From Gongronella butleri (lineage: Eukaryota; Mucoromycota; Mucoromycetes; Mucorales; Cunninghamellaceae), in contig JAIWZP010000002.1 in assembly GCA_025201375.1 (NCBI GenBank), forward strand, positions 124,001 to 188,000: a DNA stretch of 64,000 nt, in the 5' to 3' direction. The position numbers and the translations under genes are program-made. The notes below the pieces were generated by a model. That model ran no database searches. It saw nothing but the letters and a program-made list of their open reading frames with translations, and was not told the DNA's origin. This document shows positions 13,035 through 40,983 of the stretch, piece by piece. Each line of letters opens with the position of its first letter. Position 1 is the first letter of the stretch.

Positions 13035-13036
13035 TA

Positions 13037-16000
13037 AAGTGTGTCCTCCAGACAGGTCGCCGGCTTGGTGTGCCTCCAGAAATTGTTTTACAGCCAACTT
13101 GCCCGCCAATGAAAGGCTGCGCCACGGGATGGATTATAGCCCGTGCGCAGGGTGGGTCCGTCCGATTTTTTTTGGACTCAAAAATGCCAAAAATGTCGTA
13201 TTTGTCCTATTTTATATTTATCTCGCCATCTGCTTGGTCGAACCCGCTCAAAAATAGCTGCATCGCATTTAGCGCAAAATTTGCAACAAAATTGCTTAAA
13301 CCCCCAGCACGCTACGACCACTTTTGAAAAATTCAGGGGTCATTCAGGGGTCACACATTTCAATCTCAGAAGATGCCAAATTTGGAAAAATTGAACTCCG
13401 AGTGATCAATGCATCCCAAACGGGTAACTCCGACAATTTGCTATAGGCGGACTAAATGGCAAGTTGCCTTATCATAAGCTAAGAAAAACGCGCAAAGAGT
13501 GACGCATGAAGTACGGCGATCGACAGAGAAAAAGTGCCTACTTTGGGCATGATTTTTTGCAAAAATTTAAGGTTTGGCACTTCTAAATTACTGTAAGTGC
13601 ATGGATTGCATGGATATTTTATTTTTTATTTTTTATTTATCATATCATACTTTTTTATTTGCACATTTGTGTGTGCTGAGTGGTGGGCTGCAGCTGCCTG
13701 GTGAAATGACCGATGCAAAAAATTCAAACGAAAGCTGGCGCGCTGCAAGTCATCCCATTAGATGCTTTTTTGCCCCCTATTTGTTAGTAAAACTGAAATA
13801 AAAATCACAGGGTTTTGGGACCGTTGTCGAGTAAATTGCGCTTGAAGATTTTGATGAAAAAGTGAATTTTTTCTGCGAGTTTTAGCCATCATCCATCGAT
13901 GAAACTGGTCTCATTTGATAGAGATTCAAAGATGCTTTTGACATGTTACTGTAAAAGCACCACCGTTGGTTGTTTTCCCGGACGTCGAGGAAAGTGAGTT
14001 TGAAAATTAATCTAAAGTTTGATCGACTTTTGCAAGCGTGCAAAGTTCGTCCATCGAGAGGGCAAACAATCAGGAAGTGACACCCGTGTGCGTCCCTTTC
14101 GATCGGTGCCATTTTCAAGGTGATCTATAAAATATTTGAGAGCTCATTGTCTGGATGTGTGAAAAGGAAAAATTTTTGCATTCATCTACACAACGACTCG
14201 CTCGTCGCTACCTGGTTTGAGCGTCGTCTCAAAAAAAGAGGCGCGTCGCAGCTATCTACTATACTACAGTAATGTGAAGATTTTGGGTGACCCAACCAAG
14301 CTACCAAGGTCTGGTTTATGGTGTTTAGTTCCGTATTTGTGAACATGTGCAAGATTTCAAATTCATCTGCACAATGACCCTTTCAATCTCTGATTTTCAA
14401 TGTCTAGTTGAATAAGGCGCGGCGAAATAATGAGAATGCAAAAGTTGTTGGGAGTCAATTGAATCATGATTTGTGTTGGTCATCATTGAATTTGTGACAA
14501 TTCTTGAAAACGGCAAGTGCCTCGAAAACGGCCCGATCAACCTCTGGTTTTTTAATTTTTACTTCAAAGAGAGACGCCGAAATACTGTAGGTAGCCAAGT
14601 GGCAAAGTTTGGCGATGATCGAATCATCATTTTACCGCGAAATGATTTTTCATTAAACGCGCCACAGCCAAATTTTCCGCAATGTCGTGCTTCCCGACAA
14701 ATCACATGATCAACCTTTGGCTGCTTTTTATTTGCTTCTGAGAAGAGCGGAACATCATCCACTACTGTATATGTAAAAGTTTCGTGGCGCTGCGAAGAGT
14801 CCTTGGTGATAAAATGATTTTTTCAGATTTGAGAAACAAAAAGGTGGCTACTGTACTGTAGGTGGTAGGTCAGGTCAAAATGTACCTGGAGGGTCTCCCA
14901 CTTGAGAGGTTCAAGCTGAAACAACGATCTCAAATCCGTTTGGCAACCTACACAAGAGAGCCTTAAGAGTCATCTCTTTACTGTAGATGCATCGACCCCT
15001 TCTTTCTAATCAAATCTGCAATAAAAACTGAGGGTCGATTAGGCCGTTCTCGAGAAAATGGCGATCAAAGTCAAATTTAAAAAACATGAATTTCTCGCCC
15101 TGTTTACATCGCACACCAAGGAAACTGATCTTGTTCGACAGAGAATCAACTTCTGCATTTTTGTCGTTGTCGCTGCGAGCGTGCCGTGGAATACCTTGTT
15201 CATTGCCGAGAAAATTGGAATTGAAACATTAAATCCGGCGTCGCAAGTGTACAAAGGTTACGCATCGGCTTTTTTGCCGGGCTCAGATAAAATGACTCCC
15301 GTGCTCGTCTCTTTTTTTCCACTTGTAAGTTTTCAGTATAATCGAATACTGTAATAATTTAGCGCGCCAGGGCCGAAATTGTGAATTTCTAGAAAAATAT
15401 CGATTTTCTCGTCAACGGCCTGATCAAACCCCCCGTTTTTATCTTGTTTCCGTGAAGCAAGTATCATAAATGCACAAATGACAATACGTACAGTATGCTT
15501 TACGGAGCGGCGGGCACTCTACTGTACTGTACAGTATACTGTAGCGCGCCGTGTTGATTTTCACAAATTGAAATTTTTTACTGTAGCGATTTTGTAAGGG
15601 GGTCGGTCGGCATTTCAGGGCAGTAAATATTACTGTAGGTACTCGGATCGTCACGCCACTTACATCCTGGGTAATCATGTCTTGTTTATCTACGAAAATG
15701 ATATAAAAACCAATGGCTATCATAGTCATCTGATTTTGGCAAAAAAAAAGTGATTCGCTGGATTTTTGTCTGTTGTTTTGACAATACAGTAGGCGATTTT
15801 TGTACCTGTTGTATTATATCATATCATATCATAATATCATACTGTAGTGCGCTGCAAGTCATCTCATTAGATGCTTTGCTTTCCTTCTGTTTGTTAGAAA
15901 ATCTGTGATAAAGTGGGAGTCGGCTAAGCCGTTCTCGAGCAAATTGCCATTGTAGAAAATATCGAAAAGAGGTGCTCTCTCAGTCGTTTTCAATCGGATC

Positions 16001-16700
16001 GCGATGAAACCGGGCTTGTCTGGGAGAGATTCGAATGGAGCTTTTGACACGTGAATAAGCTCTGGTGTCGTCCTTTCCGCTGTCGAGAAAAATAAGTTAC
16101 AGTACTACTGTATATCATGGAAACTTTTTCAAATGTTTGATTTGTTTTTGCAAGCATGTAAATGTCGTTCATGGGCAAGCAAGCAATCTGAAAATGGCGC
16201 ACGAGCGTGTCTCTTTCGCACGGTATCAGCCTCACGACGATCCACAATATACCGGTATTTCGAGGTCCAGTGCTGAAACTGCAAAAAATAACGAAATTAT
16301 GGGTTCATCTGCAGATTTGCACAATGATCCAGTCGACCTCCGGGTTTTATTCTCTCATGAAACGAGGAAATCAAAAAATACGTATTTCTTCAAGTGGTGT
16401 CGCAGCTTTCAAAGCCAAAAATGGCCGCACACCTTGCCAGGCCATGCAAAAGATCTCGTCAATCGTCGATTTTTATTTTACTTTTTGAGAAGCAAGGGCC
16501 CAAAATATCCCCTACTAGCAAGTCGACATTGGGACCTTTGTGATCAAAGCAATGTACAATAGAAAAAAATTGGTAAACAGCGTATTGGCGAAAATGAAGC
16601 ATGTACAAAGAGTGCCGCCTGTCGCGTAATAAAAAAAAAGAAAGACAAGAGGCCGAATTGACGGCAAAAGCCGCCTTTCCACGGACAGACAAGGCGTATT
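13037..16700. repeat. Old dispersed repeat family, copy 1, no gene
   Basis: Much of this stretch is repeated at 38990-40700, and its first part also at 54580-54960. Shared words include 'cctccagaaat', 'cttgcccgc', 'gattttttttggactc', 'ctcgccatctgc', 'gaaaaattcaggggtca', 'ctccgagtgatcaatgcatccc' and 'ctgcaagtcatc'. There is also internal similarity (13745-14130 against 15851-16260). No reading frame is conserved among copies. It is densely sprinkled with TACTGTA and TACAGTA, plus a tatcatatca microsatellite near 15815. I see no gene. Confidence 0.65.
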
Positions 16701-16731
16701 TTTGAGCGCGCAAAGTGTAAATTGGGCGTTT

Positions 16732-17166
16732 TTATGACCTAGCCGATGGCTGGGCGTCGTGCGCGGCATGGACCCGGACGGGCAGGCTGGGGTATTGGAG
16801 ACGTCGCGCGTTTTCCGAGCGAATGACCGATCCAATAGCTATGTTGCGTATATTTGAATATATAGAAAAAGTGAGTGAAAACAGCCTTCAAAGCAAAAAT
16901 TGGGGTGCATACACATAAAAAAGCCAAACGATGCGGCCGAGCCAAGCATATACTGGCTTAGGGTGGACATGGCACCTCGCTTGCCACCGCCGTATCTGGC
17001 TCCAAAAACAAAAACAAGCGTGAGCGCCAGGGACGCGCGCCTTTTTTTGCAGACGCACGCTTTACCTCATGACGCTAATGCCACCAAAGACGAAGCCAAC
17101 GCAAAGACCGACGGTGCCGCCCATCAGGGCACCCACTTTCATTTTTTCAACGGTGGAGGGTTCCAT
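16732..17166 (-). CDS. MGR2: Mgr2/ROMO1 inner mitochondrial membrane protein
   Basis: Three exons (17066-17166, 16913-16995, 16732-16838) encode 96 residues. The core, with MKVGALMGGTVGLCVGFVFG, MSTLSQYMLGSAASFGFFM and SIGSVIRSE, matches the Mgr2/ROMO1 family, with two membrane segments carrying glycine motifs. In fungi Mgr2 couples subunits of the TIM23 complex and gates lateral release of proteins into the inner membrane; in animals ROMO1 is also linked to redox signalling. A C-terminal tail of about 25 residues after IRSE is longer than usual. The gene diverges from the RBM18-like gene across 135 bp. Confidence 0.88.
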
Positions 17167-17301
17167 GGTGAGAAAGCCAGGAAGAGAAAAGAAGTTCTAT
17201 TGCGGGACAGAGTCACACAAAAACGGGTAAAAAAAGTCCGCCATCGTCGGCGATCGCCCTTTTTTTCTTCTCTTTACTTCAAGCGTCTATGCAAAGTTGC
17301 C
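17167..17301. promoter_or_regulatory. Bidirectional promoter region
   Basis: A 135-bp gap separates the start codons of MGR2 (minus) and the RBM18-like gene (plus). It must hold core promoter sequence for both. A pyrimidine run (ctttttttcttctcttta) is present; no clear TATA box is visible. Confidence 0.45.
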
Positions 17302-18199
17302 ATGGACAACAAGGTAGCCCCTCATTTGAACCCTTTTTTTCACCTATTTATCAACAAGCATCCTCACCTTTCGCGTTATTTTGGTTTAGAAATTATACGT
17401 TGGTAATTTTGACACTTCTATCGATGAGTAAGGCCCTCTTTTTTTGCTTTTTTTTTTCTTTGCACGGCCGCTTATGCGTCAATCCCCTTTGTCGTTTCTG
17501 TCAGATATGCCCTATTGAAGCTGTTCAAGCCCTTTGGCAAGATTGTTCAGTTTGAATACATGTTTCATCTCCATGGGCCTAACAAAGGGACACCGCGAGG
17601 CTATTGCTTTTTGGAATACGGCGAAAACAAGGTACAATTGCACTTGCCCGCTGCTTTTTTATCAATTCGGCTCATTTTTGTTCTATTTTGATTGTCAGAG
17701 CTCATTGGAAGCCATCAGCGCTATGGATGGCAAGATGCTGCGAGGGCGCAAGCTGGTTGTCTCGTTTGCCAACAAGGTAAAATCGGAATTGCGGCAACCA
17801 AGCGCCGCCAGTGGCTCATTTTTTTTTTAATTGTAGAATCCTCACGCCAACAACGATACCCCACACAGCAGCAAGCGTCCGCCCTCATTAACTATGCGCA
17901 ACCAGCGCGTCAAACAGCTTGGATCGTAAGTAGACTGGATTGAGCGTCAGAGCAAAAGAAAAAAAAAGCCCATCGATGCATGAGACATTGACGCCCTTTT
18001 ATTTTTCAATAGCACGGACGCCAAGATTATGGCCATTGAAGCAAAACTTGCAAGGATGCAAAAGACGATTTCCGAAGATACCCATCAGGCGTCGTCATCG
18101 TCGTCATCGCCAACGTCGTCTGCGCCGGCCTCGCGTCCGTCATCACGCCCATCGTCGACATCGTCGTCGTCGTCATCCCAGCGATTCAAGCCATATTGA
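17302..18199 (+). CDS. RBM18: RBM18-like RNA-binding protein (single RRM)
   Basis: Six exons (17302-17313, 17390-17427, 17505-17631, 17699-17776, 17837-17925, 18013-18199) give 176 residues. One RRM spans about residues 5-85: KLYVGNFD is RNP2 and RGYCFLEY is RNP1. The helix after the domain (TDAKIMAIEAKLARMQK) matches the conserved C-terminal element of RBM18 (…KIKAIEAKLKMM), which distinguishes this family from other one-RRM proteins. The tail is Ser/Pro-rich and ends RFKPY. The function of RBM18 is poorly known; nuclear RNA binding is the reasonable inference. The 12-nt first exon is short and is the least certain part of the model. Confidence 0.8.
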
Positions 18200-18471
18200 A
18201 TGTGCTCCGCTTCAAAGCCGCGGAGGGGCGCGTCGCTCCTCGATTTTTTTGTTTTTTGTATGCATGCCACGAGCACTTTCCATTTTTGCTCCCTGTTCCT
18301 TCTTGTACAACCTTGTTTAGACCCGCTATGTCACGTAGCACCTCCCTGTTTATTGATTTTTTATTTGCAGCCCCACCTACAAAATAAAAGCAGCACCCAT
18401 TTCTCGCGCAGCTGCCCCTGATTTCCCACTTTCTTTCTCTTTTTCTCATTTTCCCCCCAAAGTTGCCCATC

Positions 18472-20136
18472 ATGGATACGCTAATTGCTTTGCTATGTAA
18501 CCCCTCTGAAAACACGAAGCGCCCGGAACGCCCTGCACAAGCGGGACCACCTTTGCGCGTCGACGAATTGAAAAAGGACAACTTTGACACCTTGCTTCGC
18601 AAGGTACAGTAACAAAAATACAGCTGGGCAAGCCAATTGGCCAAGTCTCATTTTCCTCACACGCTCCCGTTCCTCCTCCCCCCCCCAATTCCTTTTAAAA
18701 TATTGCTGTAGACGATGGCAACACAGAGCTTCATGAATGACGGCGCGACAAAGAAGCAAGTGTCGGATGTGATGGCCAAGAGTCTCAAGGGCAAGTCACA
18801 CAGTGTCAGCAACACGCGCCGCACTGTGCAGCAGATCATCGATGCTAGCATTGCGCAATCGGGGTCGCGTGATCAGCAACAGATGCTTCAATGGGTGCGT
18901 TTCTGCGTCGACACGTGTCTCAGTTATCAGGACGGCGGCGCTGCTTGCGCTTCCGCCACCACGGATGCCACGGTGCCCAATGGCGCCCCAGCAGAGCCCG
19001 TGCCGATAAAGAAGAAGCGTCAGAACAACAAACCTGCTGCGACAACACGCCACGAGGTCATTGACGACGACGATGATGATGATGATTATGCGCCGTCGGA
19101 TGTCGGTGCCTCGGATGACGACTATGTTCCTGAGCACGACGCCCAGGACAATGCGCACGCCGTGGAATCGGAAGAAGAAGAAGAAGAAGAGGCGGAAGAG
19201 GACCAGCAGGTGCCCGAGGCTAAACCCAAAAAGAAGAAGAAGCCGACATCGCGCAAACCCAAGGAACCCGACCAGCCACCCTTTGTCCTGCCCAATGCAG
19301 GCGCAAAGGCCGTCCAAGCGTACTTTACGGGCACGCATGTCGACGCCGCCTCGTCAAAGAATGGTCTTGGCAGCGGCTATTTTGCTAAATCTTACTTTTT
19401 CCCTTCAAAGGAGAGCTTCAATGTAGGCACTGGAAAAAAAAAAGAGCGCGGTGCGGAATTTGCGCGAGCGCGTTGCGTTCATACTGGGGCTTGCTCACCT
19501 TTTTTTTTTTTTTAAATCACACGCCAGGCCTTTAGCTCGGTGCTCAATTCTGCGCAAAAGACTATTGACATTTGTGTGTTCTCCATTACTGATGATGATG
19601 TGGCCGACATTTTGATTGCTGCCAAGCAGCGCAAGGTCGACGTGCGCATCATCACCGATAATCAACAAGCTGCAGGCAAGGGTGCTGATGCTGAGCGCCT
19701 GCAAAAGGACTATGGTATCCCTTACAAGACCGATAACACGTAAGATATTCCGTTTCTGCGTCAATTGCATCAATGGCGAAAGCCTGGACTCACCCAGCTA
19801 TTTTTAGAACGGGCTACATGCACAACAAATTCGCAAGTTAGTGACAAACAATGCTTCTTGCGCATTGATCCCAGACTGACTCCTTTTCACTTTGTAGTTG
19901 TCGACTCCAAGACAATGATCAATGGCAGCTTCAATTGGTCCAAGGGGTAAAAGTCAAAACGAAACGAAAACGAAAAAGAAACGAAAAAAAGTGGAAACGC
20001 GCCATTGCTCACACCAATGACTATTTTTCCATGCAGTGCCCGGTTCAAAAACCGCGAGAATATCATCGTCACCAACTTGCCTTACTGTATCAAGGAGTTC
20101 CAGGCTCAATTCGACGCCTTGTGGGCTGAATTTTAG
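18472..20136 (+). CDS. PLD6-like single-HKD phospholipase D/nuclease with long acidic N-terminus
   Basis: Six exons (18472-18603, 18712-19422, 19528-19739, 19808-19836, 19898-19946, 20037-20136) encode about 410 residues. The last 140 residues match the PLD6/Zucchini family: AQKTIDICVFSITDDDVAD, VRIITDNQQA, then GYMHNKFAIVD and MINGSFNWS (the H-x-K...D...GS-x-N catalytic motif), and NRENIIVTN. Family members act as dimers on cardiolipin or as endonucleases. Unlike PLD6 there is no N-terminal membrane segment. Instead a 260-residue extension has an unidentified helical start, poly-Asp and poly-Glu tracts, and basic blocks (KPKKKKKPTSRKPK) that look like nuclear localisation signals. A nuclear or cytosolic nuclease role is therefore as likely as lipid hydrolysis. 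Confidence 0.82.
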
Positions 20137-20456
20137 TTTTTTTTGGGGGGGTTTTTTTTTTTACTAAAATGAGCCCGATATTCGTGCGACCAAAATAATG
20201 ATTGGGACACGATCCACAAGAATATGCAAACGAGAGAAAGAGAACGAGGGTAGAAATGTATTAAAGCGCGCAACACGCGTGATACGAGCCAAAATGCGCC
20301 CAAACGCGTGAGAAATGTTCCAATGACGCGTCAAAGCGCGTCAAACACGCTTCAATGACTGTGGGGCGTGTGCCAGGCGCGGATATGCTGCGCACTGCCT
20401 TGAAAGACACGCGTCGTTATTAAGGCTATGGCCTTTTTCTTTTATTTTTGTATGAT
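20137..20456. other. Intergenic stretch rich in ACGCGT-type words
   Basis: This gap lies between the convergent PLD-like gene and the first secreted-protein gene. It holds several ACGCGT or GACGCGTC words (about 20274-20415) and a long T-run near 20136-20162. No gene was recognised. Confidence 0.5.
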
Positions 20457-21379
20457 TTAAGGGGATGTGTCAGCAGTGTAGACCCACATTGAATAAGGAG
20501 TGGTGCTTCCAAAGCCGTATTCCTGGCCATTGGTGCCTGTGTAACAATTGGAAGCGGTTGTAGTGGGCAAGCTGGACAGGCAAATGCACTCGTCGGCCGG
20601 AACCTGTTGATTGCCCACGCGGATGTTCATTGTGCCACGGAGACCAAAGTACCAGGGGTTCTCACCATTGTATGCGGGCGAATACTTGCAATAGTTGTAG
20701 CATTGTTCCGGCGTAAGCGCGTCGCCGCCATTTATATCCAAAACGGCATCAAACACGACGGCCGTGCCTTGCACGGACCTGTAATCGAGACACACGCCTG
20801 AGCCTGCGTCATAATCTGCAGGAGGGATGGTGGACGCCGACAGCGACGTCGTTGTCGTTGTGGTCGAATCAGATGTCTCTGTTTCCGTCGTTTTTTCGGT
20901 GGTGGTGGTTGTCGTGGTGTATGTGTGCGCCTGACCCTCTGTAACTGTCACAGCCGGTGCAGTGATCACGGTGCTAATAACCACAGGCACTGTCGCTGTT
21001 TCCGTGACTGTTGTGAATTCGCCGGGTCCCACAGTGCGAACAATCACCACCTCGTACTCAACGGGCATCGTCGTCTGCAGCGTCATGACTGTCTGCGAAC
21101 ACTGCATCTTGCTCATATCAATGGCAGAGGCCAATTTCTATGCGCGACAAAAAAAATTGAGAGATTGTGATCGGCAGCCTGTGCGCACGCGCCCAAGCAG
21201 TTGTGCGCGCACTCAAAATGGAGCATTACCTGGCCTACGAGATTGTACACGCCATGGCAATTGTCATCATCATCATCGTCGCCGTCATCATCATCATCAT
21301 CATCATCATCCTTTTTTTTCATGCGGCATTGCACCGCGCTAATTCCCAGAATGAGCAAAAGCCAAGCCGGCAGACGCAT
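20457..21379 (-). CDS. Secreted poly-Asp protein 1 with WSC-like domain
   Basis: Two exons (21230-21379, 20457-21137) give 276 residues. Exon 1 encodes a signal peptide (MRLPAWLLLILGISAVQC), a basic RMKKK and a poly-Asp run, ending NCHGVYNLVGQ. After a phase-0 intron, exon 2 has a helix-like start, a Thr/Val-rich stretch with a run of Thr, then a cysteine-rich domain: GVCLDYRS, ALTPEQCYNYCK, YFGLRG, ADECICLSSL and NCYTG. That cysteine spacing and the YFGL and CxC motifs resemble WSC carbohydrate-binding or cell-wall sensor domains. No C-terminal membrane segment is visible, so secretion into the wall is inferred. It is the first of four consecutive genes sharing the exon-1 design, and the only one with a globular domain. 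The family is otherwise unknown to me. Confidence 0.75.
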
Positions 21380-22386: not shown

Positions 22387-22458
22387 GTTTACACAATTGC
22401 GAAAATAAGAACAATGTGGGAAGATCTGAGAGTGATTCACCAATTGACAGGTCTGAGA

Positions 22459-22464
22459 TTTATA
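22459..22464 (-). promoter_or_regulatory. TATA box of secreted protein 2
   Basis: TATAAA on the minus strand, 73 bp upstream of the start codon at 22386. The spacing fits a fungal TATA promoter with a short leader. Confidence 0.5.
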
Positions 22465-23649
22465 TCCAAAAAAAAAAAAAAAAGAAAAAAATTCAGGCAC
22501 GCGGGAATTTTTTGGCACTAGTCCTGTTCTAAAGCCCTGTGAATCTCTGAAATGAGCATTCTTGCAACCTGCACCCGTGCACGACACGAAAGTGGCATCT
22601 TAAATTTTAAATCGCTATAGAGCGGCACTCTACAGCTTGGTCAATTGATTCCTGCACGCAGGGGTAAAAGGCCTGTTTTCGTATGAAATCCCCAAAAAAA
22701 CGCCCAAAATTTGCCGTTTTTAACTCTTGCGCGTGTCGAACGATCTCAATGTTTGACCAACTGACATGGAATTGAATGTTTTCAATGTTCTTGAGAGGGT
22801 GGAATTGTGTTGTAAGGCGCGGCAATTGGACCCGCTGTCATGGAAACACGCATTTTGCGAAACAAGGGCCACGTCTGAGAATGAAACGCGTCGCGAATGC
22901 TGGGTGGTCGGCGCGCTTTCAAAAAACAGGGGCGGAGCACCACATTTTTCGGTTATTTACCACCAAGCAGTGCGGAATGTAGCTCGATCGATCTTTTTCC
23001 CCGCTTAAAAAAAAAAAAAAAAAAAAAAGAAAAGGGCACAAGCAAAGTCGGTGTTGCAATTGACATCGTGAAGAGAGTGACCAGCGCATGAGAACGTGTC
23101 GTTTGGGCCCGATGCGGAGACTCCGGCTCAATTGCTGCCAAAAGCCTGGAGAACAAATGAAAAGGGGTTAAACACTTTTTCTTTCGCCAATTTCGCGCGT
23201 GCCTGATCTGGGAGTGGCTCAATCCATTCGACTTTGGGCCGGCGAATTTCTCGACGCGGATGTGATTTCCATTCCAAAGAGCAGAATCTTCTCAGTCGAC
23301 AAGATTTTTAAAAAAAAAATGAATTGCGAGAATGAGAACCTTGCGATTCATGACAATGGGAACCAAAGTAGAAGGATTGTACTTTTTGCATCCAATTGGT
23401 GCCCTGAGAAATCGGCAACGACAATTTCGGGTCAATTTGAGCCTGTCCGAATCATAAAATCTCACATTGAAGGTGTCTTACCCGTATCTTGGCGCCCTAA
23501 ACTTGATCAGTTCAGATAATGAGCGCGTCGTCGCGTCATGCACGTGATTTACGCGCTTTACACAAGAAAGCGCGCCACGACTTGGCTTTCACGCGCAAAG
23601 AGTAAAATACAGCATTGCTGTAACTTTTATTGTAAAAATAAGTTTAAGG

Positions 23650-24589
23650 TCAAGGCTCACGGGTAGTTGTCGTGTGCGTGGTCGTGGTCGTGGTCGTGGC
23701 CGTGGTCGTGGCCGTGGTCGTGTCTGTGGTCGTGTCTGTGGTCGTGTCTGTGGTCGTGTCTGTGGTCGTGTCTGTGGTCGTGTCTGTGGTCGTGTCTGTG
23801 GTCGTGTCTGTGGTCGTGTCTGTGGTCGTGTCTGTGGTCGTGTCTGTGGTCGTTTCCGTGGTCGTTTCCGTGGTCGTGTCGCTGGTCGTGTCGGTGGTCT
23901 CATCCGTGGTCGTCGCGGTGGTCGTCGCGGTGGTCGTGTCGGTGGTCTCATCCGTCGTCGTCTCGGTGGTCGTGTCGGTGGTCTCTTCGGTGGTCGTTTC
24001 CGTGACGGTGGCGCTCCCTTCCGTGGTTGTTTCCGTGACGGTGTCGGTCCCTTCCGAGGTTGTTTCCGTGACGGTGGACGTGATGGTGTCTTCGTCGGTG
24101 AATGTGGTTGTAGAGACGGATGTGGTCGTCACTGTCACGGTCTTTGTTGCATGTTCAAGTTCGTATTTCAGCTTTCTAATGACCCATTTGAGACGATCGA
24201 TTTTCTATATCCATTGTGGGGATTAAAATAACCAAATTGAGTCAATGGCTGCATCAAAATGACGCGCTAATCAAGGCGTCATGCGAAAAAAAAAAAAAAA
24301 AAAAACAAGCATTTCATGTAAAAAGAATATCATTTACCTCGCTACATTCTTCCCAGCAATCATCGTCTTTGTCGCCATCCCGGTCATTGTCTTTGTCGCC
24401 GTCCGAATCATTGTCATCGTCGTCATCATCGTCGTCATCATCTTTGTAATATTTTTCGCCTTTTGAGGCCGCAACTCTGCGTTTGCTAGGAACGACTGAG
24501 CCTGTTGCAGCTGCAGATTCGACTTTGAGGGCCGTAGCGTTAAGAACGACGCTGAGAATCAGGACAAATAGCAGGATGGAATTGCGCAT
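23650..24589 (-). CDS. Secreted poly-Asp protein 3 with (DTTT)n tail
   Basis: Two exons (24338-24589, 23650-24204) give 268 residues. Exon 1 encodes a signal peptide (MRNSILLFVLILSVVLNATA), a KRR site that a Kex2-type protease could cut, a run of Asp, a D/N/K/G acidic region and a CWEEC motif. The phase-0 intron follows SE. Exon 2 starts with a basic amphipathic helix (RLKWVIRKLKYELEHA) and continues as Thr-rich sequence with Glu and Asp, ending in about 14 near-perfect DTTT repeats. The repeat is a 12-bp minisatellite. It is a tandem duplicate of the gene at 26125-27172. An extracellular, O-glycosylated, strongly acidic protein is inferred; the function is unknown. Confidence 0.75.
23690..23900. 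repeat. 12-bp minisatellite inside secreted protein 3
   Basis: The plus strand repeats gtcgtgtctgtg about fourteen times with little variation; shorter variants continue on both sides. It encodes DTTT on the minus strand. Because the unit is a multiple of three, all six frames stay open, so long frames on the plus strand here are by-products. Confidence 0.85.
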
Positions 24590-24639
24590 GTTAGTAAAGT
24601 TGTTGAAAAAAAAATTTTGGTGCGTCGCGCATATCATAT

Positions 24640-24646
24640 TTATATG
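24640..24646 (-). promoter_or_regulatory. TATA box of secreted protein 3
   Basis: A TATAAATA word on the minus strand lies about 50 bp upstream of the start codon. The duplicate gene has the same word at the same distance. Confidence 0.5.
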
Positions 24647-26124
24647 TTACCGGTCATTTTTTTATCGTTCCGCCGCAATACATATGGGACCTGCAATAAG
24701 AAAAAGGCTGGACGCGCTCTAGGTTATCTTTTTTTTTGATACTGGACAAGCATGGTAAAATCCGAGTAATTATTCTGAAATGTATTATGAGAATATTCGA
24801 TCTGGAATAAATTGCAAACACTCGGTTTGAAATGAAATAGTGTAGCGCCTGAAAATGAAAGCACTATAGGAGGTCTTTGGTCATGCAAAATTTAGCAATC
24901 CAGGTTCAACACAAGCCCAAAAAGAGAAAAAAATATGTATACGGCTACAAATGTACCCTGGTCTTTCTAGGCAATGCGTTTTTGTCATCGTTTGAGACCC
25001 TTGTTTCATAGCCAGGGACACAAAAAACCTATTGGTCGCGTGTATTCGGAACAATCGAGAAATCGCGGAACATTTTGGCCAATTGATTCCTGCACGCAGG
25101 AGTAAAAGGCCTGTTTTCATATGAAATCCCCCCCCAAAACAAGCTCAAAATCTCCTGTTTTTAACGCTTGCGCGTATCGAACAAGCTCAATGGCTGACCA
25201 ACTGACATGGAATTGAACGTTTTCTATGTCTTGAGAGGGTGTAATTGTGTTGTAAGACGCGGCAATTGGACCCGCTGTCATGGAAACACGCGTTTTGTGA
25301 AACAAGGGACACGTCTGAGAATGAAGCGCGTCGCGAATGCTGGGTGGTCGGCGTGTTTACAAAAAACGGGGGCGGTGCACCACATTTCTCGGTTATTTAC
25401 CACAAAGCGGTGCGGAATGTGACTCGATCGATCTTTTTCCCCGCTAAAAAAAAAAAGGGCATACAACCAAAGTCCGTGTTGCAACTAACCTCGTTAAGAA
25501 AGTGACCAGCGCATGAGAACGTGTCGCTTTGGCCTTGCACGCAGAGACTCCGACTCAATTGCTGCCAAAAGCCTGGAAAACAAATCAAAAAGGGTTAAAC
25601 ACTTTTTCTTTCGCCAATTGCGTGCGTGCCTGATCTGGGAGTAGCTCAATCCTTTGGGCCGGCGAATTTCTCGACGCGGACGTGATTTCCATTCCAAAGA
25701 GCAGAATTTCTCAATCGACAAGATTCTCAAAAAAAAAAAAAAAAAAAAAAAAAGGACTGCGAGAATGAGAGCCTTGCGATTCATGACAATGGGAACCAAA
25801 GTAGAGGGATTGTACTTTGCATCCAATTGATATCCTGAGAAATCGGCAACGACACTTTCGGGTCAGTTTGAGCTTGTCCGAAACGTAAAATCTCACCTTG
25901 AATGTGTCTTACCCGTGTCTTGGCGCCCTAAACTTCACCAGTTCAGATAAGAATGGACGCGTCGTTGCGTCTTTCACGTGATTTACGCGCTTTACAAGAA
26001 AGCGCGCCCCTTACTGGCTTTCACGCGCCAAAAGAGCAAAACACAGCATTGCTGTGAGTTTATTGTAAAATTAAGTTTACGGGAACGGGATCGTGATCGT
26101 GGTGGCGGCTGAGATCGTTTAAGT

Positions 26125-27172
26125 TTACGGCAACGGCAACGGGATCGTGACCGTGGTGACGGCTCCTGCACCGGGAGGGATGGTTAACAAGAGGTCATCC
26201 GAGAAGGTGACCGTGGTCGTGACGAGGCCCGGGATCGATACCGTGAAGACGTCCGGTCTCTCCACCGTGGTGGTGGTCGTGGTGGTCGTGGAGGTCGTGG
26301 AGGTGTCTTCATGCGTAGTCGTGCTCGTGGTCGTGGTCGTGCTCGTGCTCGTGTCCAGATCCGTGTCCGTGGTCGTGCTCGTGCTCGTGGTCGTGGTCGT
26401 GGTCGTGTCCAGATCCGTTTCCGTGACCGTGGAGGTGGTCGTTTCCGTGATGGTGCCATCATCCGTGGTCGTGGTGGTCGTTTCCGTGGTCGTGTCCAGA
26501 TCCGTTTCCGTGGTCGTTTCCGTGGTCGTTTCCGTGATAGTGCCATCATCCGTGGTCGTGGTGGTCGTTTCCGTGGTCGTGTCCAGATCCGTTTCCGTGG
26601 TCGTTTCCGTGGTCGTTTCCGTGATGGTGCCATCATCCGTGGTCGTGGTGGTCGTTTCCGTGATGGTGTCCGTGGTTGTAGAGACGGATGTAATTGGCAC
26701 GGTGGTCGTCACTGTCACGGTCTTTGCATGTTCAAGTTCAAGTTCGTGTTTCAGCTTTCTAATGACCCACTTGAGACGACCGGCCACTTTGTGAATTTTC
26801 TATATCCGTGGCGGAGATTAAAATAACCAAATTGAGTCAATGGCTGCATCAAAATGACGCGCCAATCGACGCGTCATGCAAAAAAAAAAAAAAAAGATAT
26901 ACCTCGCTACATTCTTCCCAGCAGTCATCGCCTTTGTTGCCGTCCCAGTCACTGTCTTTGTTGCCATCCGAATCATTGTCATCACCATCATCGTCATCAT
27001 CGTCATCATCGTCATCATCGTCATTGTAATACTTTTGGCCTTTTGCGGCGGCGACTCTACGTTTGATAGGGGCGATTTCGCCCGTCGCAGACGCAGATTC
27101 GACTTTGAAGGCCGTAGCACTAAGAACGACGCTGACAATCAGGACAAATAACAGGATAGAGAAGTTGCGCAT
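26125..27172 (-). CDS. Secreted poly-Asp protein 4 with Thr-rich tail
   Basis: Two exons (26903-27172, 26125-26799) give 314 residues. It is the tandem duplicate of protein 3: signal peptide MRNFSILLFVLIVSVVLSATA, IKRR site, twelve Asp in a row, acidic region, CWEEC, then the phase-0 intron. Exon 2 begins KIHKVAGRLKWVIRKLKHELELEHA and continues with longer Thr repeats of the type ETTTETDLDTTTE and TTTTDDGTITE. Its end differs from protein 3: after the Thr blocks comes a non-repetitive segment (VFTVSIPGLVTTTVTF...) ending PLPLP. So the paralogs keep exon 1 and the helix but differ in tail. Function unknown; a wall or extracellular role is inferred. Confidence 0.75.
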
Positions 27173-27222
27173 GTTGATAACGTTGTTAAAAAAACAGAGA
27201 AACCTTCAGCGCGTCGCGAATA

Positions 27223-27228
27223 TTTATA
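27223..27228 (-). promoter_or_regulatory. TATA box of secreted protein 4
   Basis: TATAAA (within CATATAAATA) on the minus strand, 51 bp upstream of the start codon at 27172, matching the duplicate gene. Confidence 0.5.
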
Positions 27229-28200
27229 TGTTGTCGGCCATTTTGTTATCGTTCCGCCGCAACATCTATGACATCTGCAATAAGAATAAGACTGGACACG
27301 CTCTAAGTTATCTTTTTTTTTCTTTACTTACGTTACTGGGAGCTTGTCAAATGTCGCAAAATCTGAGCAATTTTTCTGAAACGTATTCGAGAATAATCGA
27401 TCTGGAATAAAGTGCAAATCTCGGTTTAAAATGAAACATTGTAGCGTCTAAAAATCATAAAAGCACTCCGCGAAGTCTCGGTCTTGCTATATTTAGCAAT
27501 CCAGGTCCAACACAAGCCCAAAAAAAAAAAAAAAAAAGTACACGGCCACAAATGGACCTTTGTCTTCCTAGGTAATGCGTTTTTGCAATATTTTGAGGCG
27601 CCCGTTTCATAGCCAGGGGCATAAAAATCCATCGGTAGCGGTTTTTGGAGCAATCGAGAATAACAGATCACTTTTGACTGGACACCGTGTCTCAAAATCA
27701 ATATTAGAGAAACAGACGCGTGCCCAACGTACCGCGAATTACTTAACCTGTGGTATACCGCGTGTTGTACCAAAAAAAATGGTGAATCGACTCAAAGGGT
27801 GTCAAGATTTTAGCATTTTGAACCAGCTTTCAGTATTTTTAAGCTGCTTGCCGAGCTCTTAGAACTCATAACGGCATTCATCTACTTGAACACATCATTC
27901 CACGCCTTCTTGTTCAAAAGAGCCCAGTCTTGCGGCGCTGCGATTTCTGGATGGCGCGCGATCATCATTTTTGAAAATCACAAAATTTCCAAGGGGTACA
28001 GTCATCAATTGGAACATGGCGGGATATGAGTCCTCCAATCGCCACGCCATTCGTATACACGGTAAACACGCGTCAATCACCGCCGAATATGAGATAAAAA
28101 CTGGGGGTAAATTGACTCGTTTCAACTTAAAATGCGTTTGAGGTTTTATTTTTGTCTCAAGGACTTCTCAACGAAAAATTCCTGTAGTTCTGAGAAACAC

Positions 28201-33376: not shown

Positions 33377-33489
33377 TGATATCTCGAGCCGTTTGAGTAG
33401 CTAAGGTGTTTTCAGAGGAAGGAAAAAGGGGGGAAAGGTGCTAAAAGTTTACTCGAGTAATAAAAGTGAACTTTAGCGGAAAGAAAGGT

Positions 33490-33503
33490 ACACCATCAGA
33501 AAG
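33490..33503. repeat. Target-site duplication of the LINE (5' side)
   Basis: Second copy of ACACCATCAGAAAG, identical to 28201-28214, directly outside the 5' end of the element. Confidence 0.85.
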
Positions 33504-34466
33504 AGCGTGGCTCGCAACATACCTGGACATCGATGATCAATGAAAAAAGTGATTTTTTGACGTCTTTGACGCAGTGTCAAAATCATTATTATTTTTTCGA
33601 CTTGTGAGAAACCGCGTCTGTCTTCGAGTTGCATGCTCCCATTCCGACTCAAATTCACGTATGTGCAGTGTCTCTTGCTATTGGACGCGTCAGCGCGGTT
33701 CTAGCGCACGTTCCAGTCGAGTTTATCGCGTGCAAATTTGAATCAAAAATCACTTGTTGCTCATCAATGAGCTGATGGATTGCCTTCTTTTTTAACCTTT
33801 TTGCGGATTCTCTACGTGATTTACATTTTGTGCAATTTTGATGGAATTCTAGAGACCGATTTTTCATTTTTCATTTTTGGGCTCTTGCCGCGCATAAACT
33901 TTTGAATTGCAATTGTGGCACGTCTGAGGGCTTCTGGCCATGCTCATCACGTTTTACTCTAATTTGTACGTGCTCATTTCACGTTGGTACAAATTTCAGG
34001 GCTTTGTCGTGTCAGATTGGCGAGTGGCAAGTGAATTTTGCTCTAAATCATGACCGTCATGGAGCTCCTCGGGAGAAAATGGCTCAAATGATCCCGAATT
34101 TGCGAATTTGCACCCAGGGGAGGTCTGACGCATTCATTCAACCATCCCAAGTTTTATGGAAATCGGCTATTAGCGCAATGGCCGATGACAAAAAAAAAAA
34201 AAAAAAAGATAGGGTGCACTGATTTTGGCGGCCACGCTCGCTTCCATGCTTTTCTTTCTTTGGGAGGGGTTGGGGCGAGACGTGTGTGTAACATCACTGA
34301 TTCATGCAGCTGGATCCTCGTCGGAGCTGGTACCTCAAACGAGGGAGGATGGCCGCTCACTTTTTTTTTTTTTTTGTGCTCGTCGCGGCTGCGACTTCTC
34401 TTTCTCTTTTTTTCACGGCCAGCGTGTCCTTTTTCTTTGTCCGTCTCGTTTACCTCTTTTTATCTT
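33504..34466. other. Intergenic, repeat-like, no gene
   Basis: The stretch contains words shared with the palindrome near 55.6 kb, such as 'ggacgcgtcagcgcggtt' at 33695 against 55617. An A-run lies at about 34191-34207. No conserved frame is visible. The last 100 bp, with long T-runs and 'ctctttctcttttttt', are the likely promoter of the RCC1-type gene. Confidence 0.5.
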
Positions 34467-34984
34467 ATGTTTCCACCCGACGAGAACGTCACGGAATTGT
34501 CAAACGAGCCATTCCACGCGGATTTGCAATTGACGCCTGAACAATCGTTTTCTGCAAAAGAACAGCTGCCGATGTGCCCGACATTTGAGATTTACGGCGA
34601 CCCGCCGCTCCTCTTCTTCCCTCCCATCCCTTCGAGTAAGCACGCACGCTCCCGGTGTATAAGAAAAAAAGGAAAGCAATGACCCATTTCTGCTCAATTT
34701 GCAACTTTTAGAGGATGAGCCCTTTGTCCCTGCGGGCCCCGCCGAGGCGCGATGCCATGTCTATGGTAAATTAAGTGGAAAAGAAGAAAAAAAAAGTTGC
34801 CAAAACTCGATTTTTTTCTTTCACAAGGTGCGGGCGTGGGTGTGCTCAACACAATTCCAGTGGTTGATCAAGCGCGCGCCGTGTTTCTCTCGCGCCAATA
34901 CACGTACCTCCCGCTCCACGATCATCATTTCATCCGCATCGCGGCTGGTGGCAACTATTTTGCAGGTCTGACCATAGATGGCAA

Positions 34985-35026
<42 letters not shown>

Positions 35027-36454
35027 AAAGCCAAGAGGGTGGGAAGCTGACACGGATTTCTCTTCCAACAGATTCTCACCGCTGGCGAGATTAGCTCGAC
35101 GGCAGATGAACAAGACCGATTGGGTCGCCCCTGTGCTGATTTAGGCACGGCGGCATCGACGTCTGTGCAGCTTCGTATGGTTCCTGGCGAGGTCGAGCCT
35201 GTGATTCCAAGCGGCGCGCCACCGGTTCGCTTTATTCAGGTCGCGTGTGGCGACACGTTCACTGTGGCGCTGTCTGCGCAGCATCAAATCTACTTTTGGG
35301 GCCATTTCGTTGCAAACGACAAGCCCGTTGTGGGCCAAGACGCAGGCTTTTTTACCCGCCCGCAACTTTATCCTGGCATACACGACAAGCTCCAATTCCG
35401 TGCGATTGCGGCGGGTCTCCACTTTGTCGTTGCGCAGACCATGCGTGGCGAGGTGGTCACCTTTGGCAGCAATGAAACGTGGGCGCTTGGACGGCCGTCT
35501 AGTGAGATGGAAGATACGACAAAGGAAAACGCGTCTGTGCCTGGCTATGTGGTTGATCAAGAACGCAAGGCGCTGCACGGCGTGTCGATCATTGGTGCGG
35601 GCTTCCATCACGCGTTTGCCTATAGCCGCGCTACGGATCAGCTGTGGGCGTGGGGCGGCAACCTGCATCGCCAGACGGGCACTTGCGAAACGACCGATTA
35701 CGTGCTGGAGGCGTGTGTCGTGCCGCGCTTTTGGCCACCCAATACGCATCTTGTGAGCATCACGGGTGGCCGCAATCACTCACTCGCCTTGACCAACACG
35801 GGCCGCGTATATTACTTTGGCTCAGCCATTGGCTGTTTGAGTGGCATGCCTCGTGAGCATGTCGATCAGCTGCGCAACGATCAATTGTGGCTTGCCCCCG
35901 TGGACATTGGCTTGGAAAACGTGAGCAAAGTGGTGTGCGGCATTGATCACAACATGGCCATCACCCAACCCGCGTCAACCAACCCGGCAAAGCATATTCC
36001 CAAGCGCACCGTCGTCGCGTGGGGTGGCAACAATTACTTTGAGCTTGGTCTTGGCCACTGTGACGCGCAAGAAACACCCGTGGCGCTTGTGGAATCATAC
36101 AGCGTGCAAGACATCGCCATTGGCGGCCGCCAATCGTTCATCCTCGGCCATGTGTACACTTCCGTGCCCGAGAAACCCTTCCCCGTCCAAATCTGCAACC
36201 AAGACTTTGTCGACTTTTTCAATTGCGACACCCAACCCGTCCCGCGCCAGATCCTCTCGCTCACCGCCCCCCGCAAGTACAAGCCCATCATGAGCATGAC
36301 CAAGAAGCTCCCGCAAAACACAGATGCAAGCGATGCTTCATTTGTCTACGCCAGCACCACCCACTCCGCGGACGCTACTGGCAGCTCGGAACACTCCAGC
36401 GACACCATCACCGGCAATCAAAATGATGCCAATGCCTCCCAGGCGCAACTTTGA
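34467..36454 (+). CDS. RCC1-repeat (beta-propeller) protein
   Basis: Four exons (34467-34635, 34712-34765, 34828-34985, 35072-36454) give about 587 residues. Repeated blades of the RCC1 type are visible: FIRIAAGGNYFAGLTIDGKILTAG, IQVACGDTFTVALSAQHQIYFWG, FRAIAAGLHFVVAQTMRGEVVTFGSN, LVSITGGRNHSLALTNTGRVYYFGS, KVVCGIDHNMAI and VVAWGGNNYFELGLG. RCC1 itself is the Ran exchange factor (yeast Prp20/Srm1), but many proteins use the fold. Sequence between blades is divergent, and a Ser/Thr/Asn-rich tail of about 100 residues follows the last blade. I therefore assign the fold with confidence but not RanGEF activity. The third intron holds an A-run of about 37. Confidence 0.82.
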
Positions 36455-36608
36455 GCGTGCTCTCATCCAATCACATTATGATAGCAAAAAAAAAAAAAAT
36501 GCGTCAGTTTTTCTTTCTCTCTACCTCTATTTCTTTTTCTCCCCCCCCACCCCTTTTCCGACGCAAAATGCATTTAGTACGAGATCAAAAATAGGAATAA
36601 AATCATGT

Positions 36609-37318
36609 TTACTCGAAAACAGGCGACGCATTGTCATCGTGGTTGGCGTGTTGGGTATTGCGCTTCTTGGAGAATTCAAAGACGTCTGTAACAGACTCCT
36701 TGAAGCATTGGAAATTGTAGTCGATGAGGCCATGCTTTTTGAAATTGTCTTGCCGTAAAAGACAAATCAACACAAGCAAGCTAGAAAATAGGCGGAATGA
36801 GTAGCCGAACGCGTCTTTTTTGTCTTTTTTTCTCACCTGTTAACTTCTCGCATATAAAGCACATTGCCATTGTCCAGCCGGATCAAGCTGGATGCCTCGT
36901 TTTCCGTGGGTGCAGAAGAGTGCTCAACAACAGAAGGTGATTTAAGGGCGTCGTCAAGCGTTGCGGACGCGGTCAAGTCATTGGATTCCGGCGATTGGAC
37001 GACGGTCTGATCGTAATCCTCCAAGGCACGCGTGCCATTGGGCGTAGATGTCTGCGTGCGATCCGTCACTCTAATGGCAACAAGATTAAAAAAAGATGCT
37101 TATGAGTGAATTTTCAACCTCTTTGCGTCGTCATGCATACCCGTAGATGGTCTCAATGTCGATGACGACGTCAATCATGTCGCTGCACAGCTCATACGAC
37201 TGCATATCCACCGGAGAGCTGTCGGTAGCAATGTAGATCTTGGTCAGCGTGTCAAACAAATAGGCCTTGTCGATGCCCGAGTTCTAGAAAGGCGAAAATG
37301 TCAGGGTCACGCCCCTCC

Positions 37319-37354
<36 letters not shown>

Positions 37355-37561
37355 ACCAATCTCTTACCGAGCAAAGCACATTGAGCAGATTTTCCAGCAT
37401 GGGCAGCTCGCGAATGAGCTTTTGGATGATTTTACTGAAAGCCTCATAGATGGAATGGTCGTAGATGCTGGTCAAATAATAAGTCAGGTGGATGTAGTCG
37501 CATTCGGCATCTTGCAATGCATCGCTCATGCGCTGTTGCACGTCGCGCTGTGTGTCTACAT

Positions 37562-37595
<34 letters not shown>

Positions 37596-38086
37596 AAGAC
37601 GCGATGAGACACGCGTTCGCCCCTCAATTTTCTTATCCTTGCTTACCAATTTTGTAATCGTCCGAGAGTCCGTCGACCTTGTGTAAAAGTACCTCAAAGG
37701 TGATGTTGGGGTTGATCTTGTACGCGTTGGTGACAGTGTAAAAGAGGCGATTGAGGGCTTCCGTATAGTCATCCTGCGCGTCAATGACGAAAATGAGCGC
37801 GCCCACAGAGCTGAAGATGTCCAACGAGTCGTACGCAGGATCGAAAAAGTTGATCTGGCCAGGCGTGTCCCAGATCTGAAAGTCAATGAACGAGCGCCTA
37901 TGGAAATCACGCTCCGTGTCAGTCTTTTTTTTTTTTTTTTTTTTTTTTTTGGTCCGCGCCCCTGCTTACGTGACGTCTTCCTTTTGAATCTTGGTTGTGC
38001 TCTCCAGGTAGAGGGTGTCATTTGGCGGCATTTTGCCAAAGACCACGCGCTGAATGCTCGATTTGCCACTCCTGCTCGCGCAAAAT

Positions 38087-38123
<37 letters not shown>

Positions 38124-38421
38124 GACCCAGGCCCTATTTCAAGATGCCGCCTCACTGTACCTCTGTAGCCCCATCAGCAGGATTCTCGGCTTGTCGCTGA
38201 TCGTCATGTCGTCCATAATATCACTAGAACGAGTGTGAAAAAAAAAAAAAAAAAAAATGCGTCAGCACGTTTCAGCAGCAATACTTGCTATAAGTGCGCG
38301 GCACTTGCTTATGGTCCGGATCCGTGGGATGCTGAAATTCATACTAGAGAAGGACAGACGTCAGCATGAGAAAGTTTGACGACACAAAATGTGCCAATAC
38401 CGCCTCCAAGCTTACCTCCAT
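36609..38421 (-). CDS. GTR2: Rag GTPase Gtr2/RagC
   Basis: Nine exons (38416-38421, 38285-38343, 38161-38223, 37970-38071, 37647-37897, 37368-37555, 37141-37283, 36837-37070, 36609-36780) give 405 residues. The GTPase domain shows [18 protein letters not shown] (P-loop), [20 protein letters not shown] and HKVDGLSDD (the HKxD specificity motif of Rags). The C-terminal roadblock domain matches RagC ([41 protein letters not shown]). With a RagA/Gtr1 partner it recruits TORC1 to the vacuole in response to amino acids. An acidic Ser/Thr-rich insert of about 70 residues in exon 8 is unusual. The first exon holds just ATG GAG. Confidence 0.94.
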
Positions 38422-38989
38422 GATATGCGACAAATAAGAAAATAAAAAAAAAGTGGAAAAACGAGAGACCAAGAGACCAAAAAGCGGCAAGCTACCTTTT
38501 ATCAAGCACCACGCCCGAAGTTGCATTTGAAACCCCGTCAGGTTTGCTGTGCCTTTTTTTATGGTGCTGTACGAACGGCATTCAACAGGAGTTTCAAGCA
38601 GGACAAGACCAAAATGCTGGAAAACATGCTCTGTTTGTTTCACGATGCTTATTCTGTGATCATGCACCTATCCGGTTTGGCGAGGAGGGCGTTACGGCAA
38701 GCGTGAAGCGTGTCTTGCTTCTGTTTAAAAAAAAAAATCATAGAACTGTACGTACCTACAGAGCTACAGTACCAATCATTCAGCCGATCAGCCCTGCGTA
38801 TCATACTGTAATCGTGTAATGCACGAAGGCACAATTTTCTTGGTTTTGGATTTTACAGTATGATACACGCAATAACGCAAATGTGGCACGATAAGTTTGA
38901 TCGGCGGGGCATTTTCAAGATCAGTGGACGGAATCTGACGCGCGCCGTCATTTCAATGTACGCCACAGGCCCACAGCGCGTTCCGCTGC
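38422..38989. other. Upstream region of GTR2, no gene
   Basis: Contains the presumed GTR2 promoter and, further on, TACAGTA-type words and AT-rich sequence. No conserved frame was found. Confidence 0.5.
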
Positions 38990-40700
38990 ACAAAAACGTA
39001 CACCAAAAAGCGTGTTTTTAGACTTTGCCGACTTGCTGTACCTCCAGAAAAAAATTACAGCGTACTTGCCCGCAGATGAAAATGCAACACAGCTTAAATT
39101 ACCGTACGCACGGTCCAGTGCTCAAGACCAACCCGCCCGATTTTTTTTGGACTCGAAATGTCGAAAACGCCAAAAACCTCGTATTTGCACTATTTTGCAT
39201 TCTTCTCGCCATCTGCATGGTCAACTCCCGCTCAAAAATAGTGCATCGCATTAAGCGCAAAATTTGCAACAAAAAAGCTTACACCCCCAAAGTGCTACGA
39301 CCACTTTTGAAAAATTCAGGGGTCACTCAGGGGTCACATATTTCAATCTCAGAAAATGCCAAATTTGGGAAATTTCGAACTCCGAGTGATCAATGCATCC
39401 CAAACAGGTAATTCCGACCATTTGCTATTGGCAGACGAAATGCCAGGTTGCCCCAACGTAGGAAAATGCGCAATGAGTGACGCATGAACGGTGATCGACT
39501 GAGAGAAGTGCCTACTTTGGGCAAGATTTTTTTGCAAAAATTTAAGGTTTGACACTTCCAAATTATCGGTACGTAAGTACGTCGATTGCTCCATGGATTT
39601 TTTACAGTATTTTTCATTTTTTTATTTCTTGTTTTGCACACTTTACTGTACATACACGTTTTTTATTACAGTACGTAATTGTGCGCTGTGCGCTGAGTGG
39701 GCTGCAGGCCGGTCAAGAAATGATCGATGCAAAAAGTTCAAAAAACCCAAGCTATCTACTGTAATCGTGCTGCAAGTCATCTTACAGTATTACTGTAAAT
39801 GCTTTGCACCCTGTTTGTTATATAGTAAAACTGCAATACTGTACCTACTGTAAAAATCACATACAGATTTATTACTGTAGACCGGTGTCGAGCAAATCGC
39901 GCTCAAAGATTTTGATGATGAAAAAGTGAATTTTCTCTTGATCGCGTTTTAGGCTTTTAGCCATCCATCGATGAAACTGATCTCATTCGATAGAGATTCG
40001 ACAGCTGCTTACGACACGTTATTTAAAAAAAGCACTGTTGGTTGTTAGTTTTTCCGGTTGTCTCGAGGAAAGTGTGTTTGAAAATCAACAAGTCGTCGAT
40101 GTTTGATCGACTTTTGCAGGCGTGCAAAGTTCGTTCATCGGGCGAGCAAACAACCCCCCGAAAACGACACCAAGGTGGGTCTCTTTGAATCAATGCCGTT
40201 GTTTTCGCCGCGATCCACAAAATATTTCGAAACCCTGTTGTGCTAAAATTAAATGAAAATAACGGCTTTTTGGATTCATCTGCATCACGACCAAGCCGAC
40301 CTCCGGTTTTTCAAAGTTTTTAGGGAAAGAACAACGCCCCGAAATAGCCTACAGTATGATAACATGTACCAGTACCACCGGTACTACAATACGCGTCTCT
40401 TTTCACTTGTAAGTTTTCAGCATCATCGAATAATATGATAGAAATTTGACGCGCCAAAGGCCAAAGCCGAAAATTTGATTTACAGATTACAGTAATGCGA
40501 TATTACAGTATTATCGATTTTCTCGTGAACAGTTCCGATTGACCCCCGGTTTTTACTCGTTTTCTGAGAAGCAAGGTGCCAATACTCTATATCTAAAGGT
40601 ACAAATTTCAGGGCGTTTTGATCATTCGAACATGGCTTCTCATATCGAGTCATCGACCTTTTTACAGTAAAATATTACTGTACGCTTTTTCCAAGGCGCC
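38990..40700. repeat. Old dispersed repeat family, copy 2
   Basis: This copy is collinear with parts of 13037-15360: 'tgtacctccagaaa', 'cttgcccgc', 'gattttttttggactcgaaa', 'gaaaaattcaggggtca', 'ctccgagtgatcaatgcatccc', 'gctgcaagtcatc', 'aagattttgatgatgaaaaag' and 'tttgatcgacttttgca'. It carries many more TACTGTA and TACAGTA words than the other copy. No frame is conserved. Confidence 0.7.
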
Positions 40701-40983
40701 AGGGGGTCTTCTTTCTATGATATGATACTCTCTGTATCATATCATAATCGTGAAATTTCGGTCCATGGATTGCGTGCTCGTCCTTGATCATGCACGCCGA
40801 CACGCGATTAAGCACGCCTTTTCGTCGACATTATGATACAGTAATGCATCACTGTAAAAATTCAGAGATCTGGTTGACCTGGCCTCTGATCAGATTTAAA
40901 AAGAAACAAATAGTCTTTTTTTTTATTCTAAAAACCCCACAAAAAATTATGTACATTGGTGGAAGGGGGAAGGAGAGCGCTTT

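Follow-up and report, generated by a model that had tools for sequence, protein, structure and literature searches.

Putative footprint words at the locus and across the genome

The window analysed here, 64,000 nucleotides of the Gongronella butleri genome (contig JAIWZP010000002.1, positions 124,001 to 188,000), carries a TSC2-like gene, two nested miniature inverted-repeat transposable elements (MITEs) and two copies of a dispersed repeat rich in the words TACAGTA and TACTGTA, jointly TACWGTA (W, A or T) (Table 1). From sequence comparisons we consider it very likely that these words are repaired scars of Tc1-like transposons of the Sleeping Beauty type, and that one clade of them, the B clade, prefers to insert at CNG-TA-CNG (N, any base), thereby enlarging its own target. 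All results come from a single assembly of 33.0 Mb in 110 contigs.

The initial annotation of the window had called for a test of whether the words exceed what composition predicts, and they lie far above shuffles, the reversed word and Markov expectation. TACAGTA (23) and TACTGTA (29) are the top-ranking TANNNTA words of the window by count, their total of 52 comparing with a mean of 1.51 (standard deviation 1.14, maximum 4) in 100 block Markov shuffles; across the whole genome TACWGTA occurs 16,213 times and the reversed word 6,355 times. A 254-kb sample of genome sequence, biased toward repeats and transposon loci, revealed three TA-NNN-TA words with the largest excess over expectation (blockwise Markov, 15 simulations), namely TACWGTA (541 observed, 10.9 expected), TATSATA (S, C or G; 245 and 16.5) and TACSGTA (43 and 7.8), hereafter the CWG, TSA and CSG classes. 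TATSATA also reaches 9,529 genome-wide against 1,031 for its reversed control; within the window it occurs at 13638-13649, 15817-15841 and 40716-40746.

The words had also been described as crowding the repeat copies and nearly absent from genes, which the full set of classes bears out, with 66 of the 79 footprint-type words (CWG, TSA, CSG) of the window falling in two repeat-bearing segments (11.3-16.7 and 38.7-41.0 kb) that contain 421 of its 1971 TA sites, and none in its first 11 kb, where the TSC2-like gene lies. Scars of blunt joining (TACAGCTGTA and three similar words) were absent from the window.

The words behave as insertions at TA

The dispersed repeat is present at 40 or more genomic locations, and 31 of its copies (30 of 44 genome matches and the second window copy) yielded a 1,199-nucleotide majority consensus without a single TACWGTA, while the individual copies total 39, so that the words are derived. 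Gaps of five bases between copies numbered 60, of which 22 extend from TA to TA, comprising 14 TACWGTA, 6 TATSATA, 1 TACGGTA and 1 TAAATTA.

We further measured how long the stretch aligned to each word and its surroundings is in relatives 72-97% identical, after removing the overlapping locus pairs L070/L087 and L047/L085; these were also removed from the clade-end counts below (46/47 becoming 45/46) and kept in the counts of inserts in CNG-TA-X-TA-CNG, the length tests of TACCTA, TATATA and AC/GT, and the bare-side estimate. For TACWGTA, 424 of 1540 aligned pairs were shorter by exactly five bases and 133 by ten, 134 retained the word, and 20 were of equal length without it. TATSATA (104 of 572 five shorter, 41 equal) and TACSGTA (50 of 153, 4 equal) gave similar patterns, against 6 of 2495 for the control word AATTTTT and 0 of 1580 for GCAAAAT. 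As judged by alignment, then, all three classes act as insertions at TA, with no TACWGTA word tied to one particular excised copy.

The consensus, gap events and length differences agree with the initial annotation, which had read TACWGTA as five-base insertions at TA rather than ancestral sequence; its four paired examples fared less evenly. For 13620/39603 the word at 39603 is present in T-rich surroundings that leave the alignment ambiguous, and for 15347/40431 the word at 15347 is present and its partner has TATGATA nearby. At 13947/40020 there is no clean empty site at 40020, and the clean form is that of the 31-copy consensus, ACACGTTAAAAGC. The pair 13799/39837 is not a simple one, differing instead by 14 bases (CTGTA, CCTA and CTGTA).

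TACGTA resembles a four-base insertion (65 of 261 pairs four shorter, 10 equal), a weaker class because length-matched control words show the same difference (TATATA 10 of 31, AC/GT 19 of 160). Isolated TACCTA/TAGGTA was ruled out as a footprint, the length difference being 0 in 127 of 244 pairs.

Resident Tc1-like transposons

A DDE_3 profile search of the genome returned 74 matches. Family A elements are 1625-1632 bp long with CCGTGG tips (CCGTGGCTCTC), nine two-ended copies being 99.26-100% identical; family B elements are 1333-1334 bp (tips CAGTGCCCGGAC), with nine copies 99.85-100% identical; and B2 (tips CAGTGACMGGAC) has two copies 99.85% identical. All copies of A, B and B2 have open frames (346-383 codons), and the three proteins scanned, one from each, carry the DDE_3 catalytic domain and HTH_Tnp_Tc3_2 above curated cut-offs, with 34 residues between the second D and the E (DD34E) in A and B. 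Terminal inverted repeats (TIRs) are accompanied by a TA target duplication, TA flanking all nine B copies and nine of the ten A copies on both sides; the tenth A copy, L058, has lost its left TA (AC instead). A, B and B2 are Tc1/mariner elements of the Tc1-like group, and A and B have likely moved recently, given their near-identical copies with open frames.

Family D (tips CCGTACCCTA) has three two-ended copies 69-77% identical, with a longest frame of 211 codons in one, and internal stops interrupt a DDE_1 element tipped CAGTAGG. Another repeat, at least 2.0 kb long and with a CTGG tip (99.8-99.9% identical in compared pairs), contains a DDE_3 frame (about 336 codons, but 312 in one copy) and begins TA-CTGGATTTGTCC at six sites (L049-L054), one end being covered. 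Five of these six copies are no more than about 2 kb away from a contig end, so that contigs may break there or the repeat may be subtelomeric.

Proposed excision footprints and tandem arrays

Elements of the Sleeping Beauty type insert at TA, as shown by the TA that borders resident copies at either end, and by known Tc1/mariner chemistry the transposase would cut the non-transferred strand three bases inside the tips, so that each flank would keep a CAG 3' overhang. The first and third overhang bases would pair, and repair of the middle mismatch either way would produce TACAGTA or TACTGTA, which fits the observed words. In our derivation, a tip XYZ would place X opposite Z and Y opposite Y, and clean joining would need complementary first and third bases; CAG/CTG tips would then give TACWGTA, CCG/CGG tips TACSGTA and TCA/TGA tips TATSATA, and the three leading excess classes are those predicted by this pairing rule. 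Each of the three is a palindrome whose centre is ambiguous, the form that annealing of three-nucleotide overhangs with a mismatched middle base would produce. CCG overhangs paired out of register would give TACCGGTA, which numbers 15 against 0.4 expected in the 254-kb sample. Such scars would have built up by the thousands, in the window mostly within non-coding repeats.

Compared with resident tips, TACWGTA corresponds to the CAG-tipped B and B2 and TACSGTA to the CCG-tipped A and D, so that a transposase with matching ends, which the initial annotation had suggested looking for, is present in DD34E Tc1-like elements tipped CAG and CCG. In a scan for large inserts, the CAG-tipped and CCG-tipped families and a pogo-like MITE were the only ones to give filled sites with good TIRs. 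For TATSATA, a search with the mariner profile Transposase_1 gave no match, nor did it match in control genomes, and a TIR search at 14 DDE_3 loci (L042-L049, L052, L055, L056, L085-L087) found none with at least 13 of 18 matching bases. The TIR matches of L082 proved to be only footprint arrays. TATSATA words are possibly the scars of a vanished family.

Footprints also occur in tandem, with 1,613 TACWGTACWGTA genome-wide against 12 of the reversed form. In the sampled sequence, CWG pairs spaced at 5 bp have the same orientation in 31 cases and opposite orientation in 48, a mixture that slippage alone would not give and that argues for independent events; the TSA pairs (24 same, 15 opposite) show a same-orientation surplus to which slippage may contribute. 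The commonest single inserts X in CNG-TA-X-TA-CNG are CAG/CTG (63), CC/GG (16) and TCA/TGA (10). The pattern of 39837-39852, TACWGTACCTACWGTA, occurs 170 times genome-wide (83 and 87) against 0 for its reversed control; here CC stands between CNG footprints, while isolated TACCTA looks ancestral, and it is perhaps the trimmed scar of a CCG-tipped element.

Flanks of the B clade

The B clade comprises elements tipped CAGTGCCC, CAGTGACC and CCGTACCC and near-palindromic MITEs of about 1 kb. CNG precedes the left TA and follows the right TA in each of the nine B copies, and likewise in the two B2 copies, the three two-ended D copies, L084, L089 and L094. Over the sampled loci CNG stands outside 45 of 46 clade ends (B including MITEs 25/26, B2 5/5, CAGTGCCCTCC 4/4, CAGTGCCCTA 4/4, D 7/7), against 1 of 20 ends in family A, 1 of 6 in the CTGG repeat, 0 of 2 in the pogo-like MITE and 1 of 3 in the DDE_1 element; none of nine A copies has CNG on both sides. 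A genome-wide search for TACAGTGCCC ends found 198 (reversed control 46), and the 100 of these 198 rows examined include 33 complete pairs, 32 of them with CNG on both sides, four being B copies also counted separately. As background, among 13,181 TAs, 1427 have CNG immediately 5' and 185 have it on both sides; in 129 of those 185 CNG-TA-CNG sites both outer TAs are present, and these are tandem footprints.

These flanks suggest that the B clade likely integrates preferentially at CNG-TA-CNG, a site that looks like two transposon ends meeting at a single TA. Most such sites are provided by tandem footprints and every excision would add a unit, and the junction CNG-TA-CAG formed by an insertion is again such a site; L061 directly adjoins another B tip. 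We favour, with fair confidence, the further reading that this Tc1-like clade targets scars of its own kind, its transposase recognising CNG-TA-CNG and its growing non-coding arrays sparing genes. The initial annotation had overlooked both the sister footprint classes and the clade sitting inside footprint arrays.

Other features of the window

The larger window MITE has inverted arms at 11807-12096 and 12725-13018 that are 96-99% complementary. The smaller, which we take to be pogo-like, has a paralogous empty site in L059. Of these two MITEs, both of which had been credited with CAGTA ends, the smaller does have them, and the larger has CAAGTGG tips with TACTG-TA outside.

Table 1. Features of the window (positions counted from its first nucleotide)
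Feature	Coordinates	Strand	Remarks	Basis
Open frame, 1150 amino acids	7857-11309		100% identical over its length to a Gongronella butleri protein	
TACTGTA word	11787-11793		Left neighbour (CTG-TA) of the 1.2-kb MITE	Word and end comparison
Near-palindromic MITE, about 1.24 kb, CAAGTGG tips CAAGTGGAG	11794-13029		At CTG-TA on the left and TA-CTG on the right	
MITE, 206 bp, tips CAGTARATGCTCGTTATAACGGC	12428-12633		Inside the larger MITE, at plain TA	Inverted arms
TACTGTA word	13030-13036		Right flank of the 1.24-kb MITE	
Dispersed repeat copy	13060-16120	+	Many footprint words (e.g. 13589, 13947, 14265, 14583, 15347)	
Tandem footprint TACTGTACTGTA	14849-14860		Resembles the CNG-TA-CNG target; words at 14849 and 14854	
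Four-word TACWGTA array	15520-15543		Three words with common TAs (TACTGTACTGTACAGTATACTGTA)	
TATCATA cluster (TSA class)	15817-15846		Adjoins TACTGTA	
Second copy of the dispersed repeat	38765-40843	+	18 TACWGTA	
TACTGTACCTACTGTA	39837-39852			

The MITEs of about 1 kb (L013, L015, L030, L037 and window 11794-13029) are near-palindromes over much of their length, with related bodies and differing tips, and a further near-palindromic element of about 1 kb lies between TA dinucleotides at 55312-56325 (tips AAATCCAGGGGT). Tandem duplicated segments at 22637-27660 are 75-86% identical and contain short-period repeats bearing open frames. An inverted repeat pair at 56656-58003 is 86% identical, one arm overlapping the 5' part of tRNA-Pro (57982-58055).

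Alternative explanations

That the words are microsatellites, compositional bias or a conserved binding motif is scarcely credible; short tandem arrays do exist and the words do cluster in AT-rich repeats, but the shuffles, the consensus free of the words, the five-base length differences and the mixed array orientation all speak against it, and the flank offers no template for CWG slippage. An improbable reading, though a less remote one, makes the CNG-TA outside B-clade tips part of the element, with true ends CNGTACAGTGCCC, the outer TA as target duplication and no preference for footprints. It would account for CNG on both sides of 32 of 33 pairs and for an outer TA in 78 of 86 CNG rows, and excision of such an element would likewise leave TACWGTA. 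Against this, N varies among the 86 CNG rows (of 100 examined; CTG 50, CAG 29, CGG 6, CCG 1) despite B copies 99.85-100% identical, and the outer TA is missing in 8 of the 86 and on one side of two of nine B copies (L061 and L066, CA instead), whereas the inner TA, read without being required, is found at both outer ends of each of the nine B copies (18 of 18). With N varying between near-identical copies and the outer TA sometimes missing, the flank probably does not belong to the element.

Local hopping without sequence preference, in which reinsertion beside an element's own scar gathers scars on both sides, is unlikely too, albeit the least so of the three. Arrays do surround the elements, with a second footprint further out at 34 of 66 ends. 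However, random choice of side with 3-4 footprints per site would leave 12-25% of elements with a bare side, against 1 of 33; flanks such as TTCTG and TCCTG lack an outer TA and hence are not footprints of that form; and TSA footprints, whose genome-wide count exceeds half that of CWG, directly flank 0 of 33 pairs.

Several observations count against our preferred account of scars and a clade drawn to them. Both excision and integration are read from one assembly, and no single site was seen as empty, filled and footprint alike. TACSGTA (1,999) and TACCGGTA (758) fall below their reversed controls genome-wide (9,577 and 2,067), so that both classes rest on the 254-kb sample and the alignments. 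Most TACWGTA pairs, from diverged repeats, differ by lengths other than five bases, and other TANNNTA words also show 97 of 1766 pairs five shorter (427 equal), which may be due in part to nearby footprints. One MITE copy, L081, has TTG on one side, and one of the 33 pairs has a GTG flank. No TCA/TGA-tipped source of TATSATA appeared among recurrent tips after TA, in a short-TIR search at DDE_3 loci or at extra Tc3_2-HTH loci. The makers of single footprints at plain TA are poorly identified, the candidates being the CTGG-tip repeat (1 of 6 ends at CNG, one end covered), the pogo-like MITE (0 of 2) and a pogo-like element (1 of 3).

Relation to known systems and implications

The fungal families share DDE_3, HTH_Tnp_Tc3_2, DD34E, TIRs and TA duplication with the Tc1-like DD34E group of Tc1/mariner. 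Among fungi, impala and mimp of Fusarium are Tc1-like elements with MITEs; a comparable accumulation of footprints was not found for them in titles and the beginnings of abstracts. With Sleeping Beauty footprints the words of this genome share the TAC(A/T)GTA sequence, the TA site and the expected three-nucleotide overhang: PMC3432063 describes TAC(A/T)GTA as the typical Sleeping Beauty footprint, in line with the C(A/T)GTA that the initial annotation had given for CAG-ended Tc1/mariner elements, and PMC7827188 describes three-nucleotide 3' overhangs, end-joining repair and footprints identical to the overhangs. There the footprints are known from engineered excision, whereas in the fungus natural words number in the thousands, fall into several classes and also form tandem arrays. 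According to PMC7913693, Sleeping Beauty, ZB and Bari prefer AT-palindromes ATATATAT, a preference from which the B clade departs in sitting at CNG-TA-CNG. No report of footprints as transposon targets was found in titles and the beginnings of abstracts in open-access PMC.

The proposal that this DNA records many past excisions is supported by the excess of the words, their insertion at TA and the matching tips, with excision itself as the probable cause. The genome would then be a readable record of past cut-and-paste events that are ordinarily invisible, and its footprint classes could be assigned to transposon families still resident or already vanished. Should the B clade indeed target footprints, nature would have produced a target system that reinforces itself, a safe-harbour strategy not found in the titles and abstract beginnings of the open-access literature, and may offer a route toward a site-preferring transposon tool.

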